Position numbers and translations under genes: made by a program | From: Prochlorococcus sp. AG-355-I20 | GTDB taxonomy: Bacteria; Cyanobacteriota; Cyanobacteriia; PCC-6307; Cyanobiaceae | Reading direction: 5' to 3' | Length of the DNA stretch: 38,883 bases | Assembly (NCBI GenBank): GCA_003280895.1 | Contig: QCDM01000012.1 | Span: 1-38,883 of the forward strand | Shown: piece by piece, positions 1 to 2,688 of the stretch | Layout of the letters: every line of letters starts with the position of its first letter | Position numbering within the stretch: position 1 is the first letter of the stretch | Notes under the pieces: generated by a model | What the model was told of the DNA's origin: nothing | Seen by the model: the letters and a program-made list of their open reading frames with translations, nothing else | Databases searched by the model: none

Positions 1-431
1 TTGATTTTGTAAAACATATACAAAAATGGGATTTAAAAAAAATAAGTGAAATTTGCAATATATCCGAGAAAACAATTATTGATATTGCAAAATTATGGGG
101 AAAAAGCAAAAATGTTCTAAGTCTTTGGTCGATGGGTTTGAATCAAAGGCAAGAGGGTACAGCCGCAGTAAATGGGCTAATAAATCTTCATTTAATGACC
201 GGCCAAATAGGCAAAGAAGGTTCTGGTCCTTTTTCCTTAACTGGCCAACCAAACGCTATGGGTGGGAGAGAAGCAGGAGGACTATCGCACCTTCTTCCAG
301 GATATAGGTTTGTAAAAAATAAAATAGATAGGAATGAAATTGAAAAAATATGGGGGTTCCCTGAGGGAAAGATATCTGCAAAACAGGGTCTATCTGCATT
401 TGAACAAATAGAAGCAATAAAAAAAGGATCT
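1..431 (+). pseudogene. narB: narB internal fragment, inverted relative to the narB 5' part (partial at window edge)
   Basis: In the frame of base 3 the plus strand encodes about 143 residues from the middle of a molybdopterin nitrate reductase. Family-typical stretches are LWSMGLNQRQEGTAAVNGL, a TGQIGKEGSGPFSLTGQPN block, and MGGREAGGLSHLLPGYR, which bind the bis-MGD cofactor. No start belongs to it: the frame is open to the left edge, and internal ATGs are not real starts. After IEAIKKG at about 426-431 the NarB match stops and the frame runs into reverse-complemented narB 5' sequence, ending at an accidental TAA near 455. The identity as NarB is clear; whether the rearrangement exists in the cell or arose during amplification or assembly cannot be decided here. 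Confidence 0.85.
426..431. other. Inversion junction within narB
   Basis: Plus-strand NarB coding and minus-strand NarB coding meet tail to tail here. The bases at the crossover read GGATCT and contain the self-complementary GATC (427-430). It could belong to either side, so the breakpoint cannot be placed more exactly. Short palindromic microhomology is the usual signature of an inverted template switch. Confidence 0.75.
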
Positions 432-1099
432 GTTCCAGAAGAAATTTGTAAGTAAAAATCTGCTATGGATGAAGTTTCAGTTTCTCTTGGATCAATTACT
501 ATTACTTTTAAATTATCATTTACATTTCTTTTACGTTTTTTAATTCGATCAAAAAGAACGGGATGACATTCTGCAGTATTTGTCCCTATTAATAAAATTA
601 AAGAGCAATGATCAATATCTTCATAACAACAAGGTGGACCATCAGAGCCAAAACTTCTGTTATAACCAGCTACTGCTGAGCTCATACATAGTCTTGAATT
701 AGCATCAAAATTATTTGTGCCTATTGCTCCCTTGAGAAGCTTTTGGGCTACGTAATAATCTTCAGTATGAAATTGACCTGAGCCATACATAGCTATTGAA
801 TCAGGTCCATAATTTTTTATAGAACTCAAAATATTCTCTTTCAGAATTTCGTATGATTCGTCCCAGGAAATTTCTTTAAATTCTTCATTTAAATTTTCCC
901 TATAAAGTGGTTCTTTTAATCTCCCGTCTTTTAAAGTCTCACATACTGTTGCTCCTTTTACGCACAATTTACCTTGAGTTGAAGGACTATCCCTATCTCC
1001 ACTTACTAACCATTTATCATCAGAAACCGAACTTTTAGGCTTCATTTTTAAACCACAGCCAACACCGCAATATGGGCATTGACTTTTAGTAAAATTCAT
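428..1099 (-). pseudogene. narB: Assimilatory nitrate reductase NarB, N-terminal 224 residues, then interrupted
   Basis: Assimilatory nitrate reductase reduces nitrate to nitrite with electrons from ferredoxin, using one 4Fe-4S cluster and Mo-bis-MGD. The N-terminus starts MNFTKSQCPYCGVGCGLKM, giving cluster ligands C8, C11, C15 and C46 (in GKLCVKG). C138 in NSRLCMSS is the expected molybdenum ligand. NarB-like sequence continues through IDPRETETSSIADF and ends at ISSGTD (codon 224, base 428). The open frame continues to 188, but that tail is the antisense of the inverted narB piece and should not be annotated as protein. It lies 35 bp downstream of nrtP on the same strand, so nrtP-narB were probably one operon. 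As written the enzyme would be non-functional. Confidence 0.88.
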
Positions 1100-1134: not shown

Positions 1135-2688
1135 TTAAACGTAATTTTCAGCTTTTTCGCCTTCATAAGCATCAGCGAATGATCCTTGAGGTTCCTTTAA
1201 AAAGAAATAACAGAAAAATCCAACTATTAATCCTGCTATACCTAAAACTTGGAAGAAGGCACTATTTGAAGCAGCAATTATTTCTGGAGAAGGATCTTTA
1301 CCTCCACCCATCCATAAAGGTAAAAGGCTATAAATATTTAGATAAGTTACCGCACCAACATTTCCATAAGCCCCAACCAATCCAGCTATTTGTCCTGTCA
1401 CTCTTTTTTTAACTAAGGGAACTAAAGCAAAAGTTGAACCTTCTCCTGATTGAACAAAAAACGAACAAAGCATAGTTAAAAATACAGCCATAAGAATTCC
1501 TGCTGATCCTGTAAAAGTTCCAGGTTTTATTAAAGACATTAATAGATATCCAAACCCTAATCCCATAGTTAGGAATCCCATTGTATTTTTTCTATTGCCT
1601 GTTCTGTCAGATATCAATCCTCCGGCAGGTCTAGCTATTAAATTCACAAATGCATAACATGATGCAAGAATTCCGGCTATAGCTTTAGGTAAATCAAATG
1701 TAAATTCAAAGAAACTAGGAAGCATTGAAACTACCGCCAATTCTGATCCAAAATTTACGATGTAAGTTAATTCCAAGATCGCTACTTGTTTGAATTCATA
1801 TCTATCTTCTTTAGGGTAAATTTTAGTTCCATTTAATAATTCAATATTCGTTCTTATAATTCCCCAAGTTTGGAAAATAAACCAAGCTAAAACTGCGATT
1901 AAGGCTATTGGATAAGTAGATGAAGTAAGGAAACCTACTTTTTGAAGTCTCCAACATAGGACTGAAAGAATTGCTGCGAATGGGACATTCATTCCAATTA
2001 AACCCCAGAAATCTCTTATACTCGTTACTTCTAAACCAGCTGTTTTTGCAGGCCTTTGATAAGGTTTTCCTGGAGGTGTATCAGTCACACTAAAGAAATA
2101 AATAATTCCATAAACGAAAGAAATAATTCCTGTAAGAGCAATAGCTCCCCTCCAATTAAGTACAGCTCCAGTAGGTAACTCAAACCCTCCTGAAAAAGAC
2201 AAGAATCCAGCTACGGCAACAAGAGAAAGGGCAGAAAAAGCAGATCCAAAATTTCCCCATCCTCCATATATTCCCTCAGCCAAACCAATTTCTTTCGGAG
2301 GGAACCATTCAGATACCATTCTTATTCCGATAACAAAACCTGCTCCAACTATTGATAAAAGTAATCTCGCAATAACAAGTTGATTGAAGTCTTGAGCACT
2401 AGCAAATAATAAACATGGCACGACAGAAAATATCAAAATTGTTGAGTAAGTTTTTCTTGGGCCGAATTTATCCAATAACATTCCAATCAATACTCTTGCA
2501 GGGATAGTCAAAGCGACATTACATATCGCTACTGTTCTAATTTGAGCAACGGATAAACCTAAATCGGCTTTAACAGTAGTTGCAAGAGGTGCGAGGTTAA
2601 ACCAAACAACAAAAGTAAGGAAAAAGGCAAACCAGGTGAGGTGAAGAGTTCTATATCTGCCATTTAGAGACCAAACGTCACTTAACAT
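1135..2688 (-). CDS. nrtP: Nitrate/nitrite permease, major facilitator superfamily (NrtP/NapA type)
   Basis: This is a 517-residue, roughly 12-helix inner-membrane protein of the NNP nitrate/nitrite porter branch of the MFS. It takes up nitrate and nitrite in marine picocyanobacteria, where the gene is also called napA. Visible family features are the loop 2-3 motif LLDKFGPRKTY, the glycine-rich nitrate-signature-like helix with GIYGGWGNFGSAF, a second one with GLVGAYGNVGAVTY, and conserved GIRMVSEWFPP. A soluble loop near residues 285-300 (IYPKEDRYEF) joins the two halves. Length is normal and there is no sign of decay. It is upstream of narB with a 35-bp gap. An NtcA-type box sits about 58 bp before the start codon. 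The partner nirA is not in the window. Confidence 0.93.
   Translation of the reverse strand: MLSDVWSLNGRYRTLHLTWFAFFLTFVVWFNLAPLATTVKADLGLSVAQIRTVAICNVALTIPARVLIGMLLDKFGPRKTYSTILIFSVVPCLLFASAQDFNQLVIARLLLSIVGAGFVIGIRMVSEWFPPKEIGLAEGIYGGWGNFGSAFSALSLVAVAGFLSFSGGFELPTGAVLNWRGAIALTGIISFVYGIIYFFSVTDTPPGKPYQRPAKTAGLEVTSIRDFWGLIGMNVPFAAILSVLCWRLQKVGFLTSSTYPIALIAVLAWFIFQTWGIIRTNIELLNGTKIYPKEDRYEFKQVAILELTYIVNFGSELAVVSMLPSFFEFTFDLPKAIAGILASCYAFVNLIARPAGGLISDRTGNRKNTMGFLTMGLGFGYLLMSLIKPGTFTGSAGILMAVFLTMLCSFFVQSGEGSTFALVPLVKKRVTGQIAGLVGAYGNVGAVTYLNIYSLLPLWMGGGKDPSPEIIAASNSAFFQVLGIAGLIVGFFCYFFLKEPQGSFADAYEGEKAENYV

Follow-up and report, generated by a model that had tools for sequence, protein, structure and literature searches.

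The left end of contig QCDM01000012.1 of Prochlorococcus sp. AG-355-I20 holds two pieces of the nitrate reductase gene narB that meet tail to tail, and it may be asked whether this gene was broken by an inversion of the chromosome or whether the join was made in vitro. The window, i.e. the whole stretch of 38,883 nucleotides that was analysed, begins with the first base of this contig (C12 of the assembly). The best named matches of the window narB were Prochlorococcus records, most bearing single-cell names, and its DNA was mostly 97-99% identical (range about 89-99.8%) to intact narB elsewhere in Prochlorococcus. The assembly measures 1,393,450 bases. From the names of these relatives, the number of contigs (39), the completeness of 77.7% and the 200-bp gaps described below, we infer that it was obtained from a single cell. 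A contig of a MAG labelled Flavobacteriaceae (PKDV01000033.1) also carried a Prochlorococcus narB, with 97-99% DNA identity, and was probably mis-binned.

The intact narB of AG-402-K16 (locus L034, 6001-8112, 703 aa) was used as the reference for coordinates. Window positions 1099-427 align to L034 6001-6673, whereas window positions 1-433 align in the opposite sense to L034 6761-7193. The first piece (428-1099, minus strand) corresponds to codons 1-224, which encode the N-terminal Fe4S4 domain and the start of the molybdopterin domain (matching positions 1-52 of Pfam PF04879 and 1-162 of PF00384); it has no internal stop and differs from L034 by five synonymous and no non-synonymous codons. 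The second piece (1-433, plus strand) reads toward the junction and contains the complete codons 255-397. The preliminary description had placed a separate, more C-terminal NarB segment on plus-strand positions 3-431, and both the L034 alignment and the match of positions 3-428 to PF00384 positions 161-263 identify it as residues 255-397, meeting the minus-strand piece tail to tail. Over residues 255-396 (142 codons), this segment shows three synonymous and one non-synonymous codon differences with respect to L034. The assignment of codons 1-224 to the minus strand was likewise confirmed by L034 and Pfam, but not the stop that had been placed at base 428: only the likeness to NarB ends there, while the frame runs for 79 more codons, down to position 188. 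The resulting open reading frame (188-1099, minus strand) crosses the join and is a false chimera of 303 aa, made of 224 NarB codons and 79 codons of antisense narB, which should not be annotated as NarB. The 87 bp between the two aligned segments (L034 6674-6760, codons 225-254) are missing from C12 because the window starts at the contig end. Next to narB lies a 517-aa frame (1135-2688, minus strand), named nrtP only in the preliminary description, which agrees with its L034 counterpart in length and position. Compared with the narB of the HLII nitrate assimilation cluster of Prochlorococcus, described in PMC6370341, the upstream neighbours are those of L034, and one 433-bp piece differs in order and strand.

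At the junction, the two joined narB sites share seven bases, GATCTGT / ACAGATC (427-433), which in intact relatives form an inverted pair 513 bp apart. In a simulation of inverted joins placed at random within narB, at least seven bases were shared with a frequency of 0.00095. The GATC palindrome that had been pointed out at the breakpoint is present (427-430), although it is incidental to the longer microhomology; as the cause of the join it was rejected, since the shared stretch measures seven bases and an inverted join requires no palindrome. The exact 7-mer pair, at the same spacing of 513 bp, was found in 26 of the 29 narB loci of relatives that were checked; two of the remaining three are cut by a contig end and one has a changed base. 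This conservation is compatible with a real and recent inversion of 513 bp within narB, mediated by the 7-base inverted repeats and abolishing nitrate reduction, which would look alike at this breakpoint. It might also suggest a programmed switch controlling narB, in that the segment lies between the arms of a short inverted repeat; this repeat, however, is only 7 bp long and lies inside the coding sequence.

The form of the join is that of the inverted chimeras produced by multiple displacement amplification (MDA). According to Lasken and Stockwell (2007; PMC1855051), 406 of 475 MDA chimeras were inverted, 337 of these 406 joined sites less than 10 kb apart, and 93.5% of the close inverted ones had complementary bases (two or more, up to 21) at the join. 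The narB join brings together nearby segments of one locus, on opposite strands and 513 bp apart, and its seven complementary bases fall within the range of 2-21 given there. It therefore resembles those published chimeras in being inverted, with an intervening deletion, a distance below 10 kb and short complementary bases, and differs from them in lying at the end of an assembled contig, whereas they were observed in raw reads.

A 32-mer spanning the junction, with up to three mismatches allowed, was found in none of the 265 other genomes of the genus, its only match among the 266 being the own genome; the junction is thus private to one sample. The 303-aa chimeric protein, used as a query, matched 47 of the 266 genomes, own included. 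In 45 of the 46 others the arrangement is normal, that is, the two parts lie on one contig and on opposite strands, even though in one of them (G248) the second part is cut off by a contig end. The 46th (G080) has the parts on two contigs and its arrangement is unreadable. These results argue against a real inversion and, with no inverted state among the 45 readable genomes, make the programmed switch so improbable as to be negligible. No inverted join was present in the 67 narB loci fetched from other genomes (some genomes being represented twice, and only some loci reaching a contig end); therefore, such joins are not frequent at narB. A literature search combining narB, inversion, nitrate reductase and Prochlorococcus retrieved no paper. 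One genome (G043) holds two copies of narB in opposite orientation (G043:C1:1082635-1083333 and 1299003-1299701); duplicate nitrate genes are reported for MIT0604 in PMC6370341.

The rest of the gene was looked for in the own genome with a 6.1-kb DNA query, extending from codon 201 of the L034 narB through the downstream genes. Three places matched, namely the two pieces in the window and contig C16. The latter starts at L034 7554 (codon ~519) and continues in normal orientation, with 99% identity, through the downstream genes; judging from their translations, these appear to be molybdenum-cofactor genes. Codons 519-703 on C16 show two synonymous and three non-synonymous differences with respect to L034 and no internal stop. 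The lack of any stop among the narB codons on both C12 and C16 speaks against a real inversion, although it would be expected after a recent one too. PF04879 and PF00384 are both present in the assembly, but the parts of narB are split between the chimeric contig C12 and C16, instead of forming one frame of ~700 codons. With the 6.1-kb query, L034 6674-6760 and 7194-7553 had no counterpart in normal position in the own assembly, and the normal narB junctions with the codons flanking codons 224 and 397 were absent from it as well. Searches of the own genome for a second narB copy and for the second breakpoint of an inversion found neither; C12 ends 87 bp short of the position of the latter. C12 and C16 flank narB in the same order as in a relative, G007, and therefore a genuine inversion would not extend beyond narB.

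All 78 contig ends of the assembly were compared with the whole genome of G007 (1,729,635 bases). For 60 of them the last 100 bases could be aligned, in a few cases only weakly; the other 18 are unalignable and thus outside the count. Inverted joins were found at three of the 60 alignable ends, always at 433 bp or less from the end: the left end of C12 and the right ends of C18 and C33. The join of C18, in its last 288 bases, has seven shared bases, and that of C33, in its last 49 bases (G000:C33:3157-3205, L148), has five. The C18 end (G000:C18:24793-26344; L265 8794-10345) moreover contains, immediately preceding its inverted tail, a second copy of 1271 bp that lie upstream on the same contig (99.84% identity, 2 mismatches), and so looks like a compound chimera; the right end of C33 is a further end chimera. 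When these two end pieces were searched in a set of 60 genomes that comprised the own one (37 of the genus and 23 of other families), neither junction was contiguous in any genome but the own. By a hand tally, both parts of the C18 join occur on a single contig in 26 relatives, where their strands are opposite and about 5-6 kb separates them; for the C33 join the same holds in 13 relatives, with opposite strands and a distance of about 2.3 kb. A few relatives have the parts on separate contigs, and the remaining ones yielded one part or neither. Across 22 fully scanned stretches (~167 kb aligned), the only inverted joins shorter than 20 kb were those of C12, C18 and C33.

The presence of the same kind of join at two further contig ends counts against a real inversion of narB. 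It also bears on whether the join might be a pure assembler misjoin, or the product of two library fragments ligated to each other, without any amplification chimera behind it. The join does lie close to the end of a contig, the part where assembly is least reliable; yet inverted, short-distance joins with 5-7 shared bases recur at three contig ends, and this recurrence points to template switching. Seven shared bases are, in addition, fewer than the k of such assemblers, which counts against assembler error. We regard this explanation as very improbable, and as somewhat less probable than a real inversion.

A further indication comes from the way in which contigs were trimmed. In three pairs of neighbouring contigs (C9/C20, C2/C32 and C24/C29) the gap measures exactly 200 reference bases; in other close pairs it amounts to 192 (C18/C31), 210 (C28/C33) and about 140 bases (C1/C3). 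As stated in PMC5519541, contigs from the Bigelow single-cell pipeline lose 100 bp at each end and are discarded if shorter than 2 kb, and PMC6122165 indicates that its Prochlorococcus cells were assembled by an earlier-published Bigelow procedure. The three 200-bp gaps match 100-bp trimming per end as given there, and would be expected if the single-cell pipeline was used. With 100 bp restored, C12 would reach as far as L034 6661, which lies 13 bases beyond the start of a mirror copy of codons 1-224. This is suggestive of a fold-back rather than of a real inversion, for which a contig stop 13 bp past the second breakpoint would be a coincidence. The C12 end was also considered as a k-mer fork, which 87 missing bases and a 100-bp trim made suggestive, but no assembly k was found to fit exactly.

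On these grounds, the narB join is very probably an inverted chimera generated by Phi29 amplification of a single cell, the native narB being probably intact. An inverted MDA chimera had been preferred from the outset, and it is upheld by the geometry and microhomology of the join, by the two other inverted contig ends, by the absence of the junction in the 265 genomes and by the lack of internal stops. The intactness of nrtP, mobA and moaA, which had been adduced in favour of an artefact, turned out to be a weak argument, as it would be expected after a recent real inversion too. Such an inversion is very improbable given the evidence above. The amplification chimera could have formed as follows. 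During amplification of a single Prochlorococcus cell by Phi29 (MDA or WGA-X), a nascent strand with the 3' end ACAGATC (codons 223-225) would be displaced; this end would anneal to GATCTGT (codons 396-398), located 513 bp further on in narB on a displaced strand with the same polarity, and would then be extended back toward codon 225. A mirror event, priming from the other site, would yield an identical join. The short-read assembly would then take up the chimeric branch at the contig end, later trimmed.

The split narB is almost certainly not a real feature of the chromosome, and the cell's native gene is probably ordinary and intact, spanning C12 and C16. Caution is thus required when nitrate use is compared among Prochlorococcus cells, and this cell should not be scored as narB-minus. 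It should be scored as narB-carrying because the peptide motifs QWHTM and PMHWGF, translated from published narB PCR primers, are located on C16. More in general, chimeric sequence can occupy the final half kilobase of contigs in this assembly, evidently in spite of the trimming of their ends. A real inversion, if true, would be a very recent knockout of narB in one wild cell, that is, a loss of nitrate use caught in progress.

Other irregularities were noted in the assembly. The six small contigs C34-C39 gave no alignment at all to G007; together with C23 and C30 (L138, L145 and L149-L154), they belong to a set that aligns little or not at all to this genome and that may consist of flexible genes, phage or contamination. 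The left end of C15 (G000:C15:1-233, L130) was considered as a same-cell chimera with C8, and this was rejected since its first 182 bases match the own C8 at 93% only. The same end conflicts with G000:C1:180121-180192, with which it shares 72 identical bases, while the sequence to the left differs.
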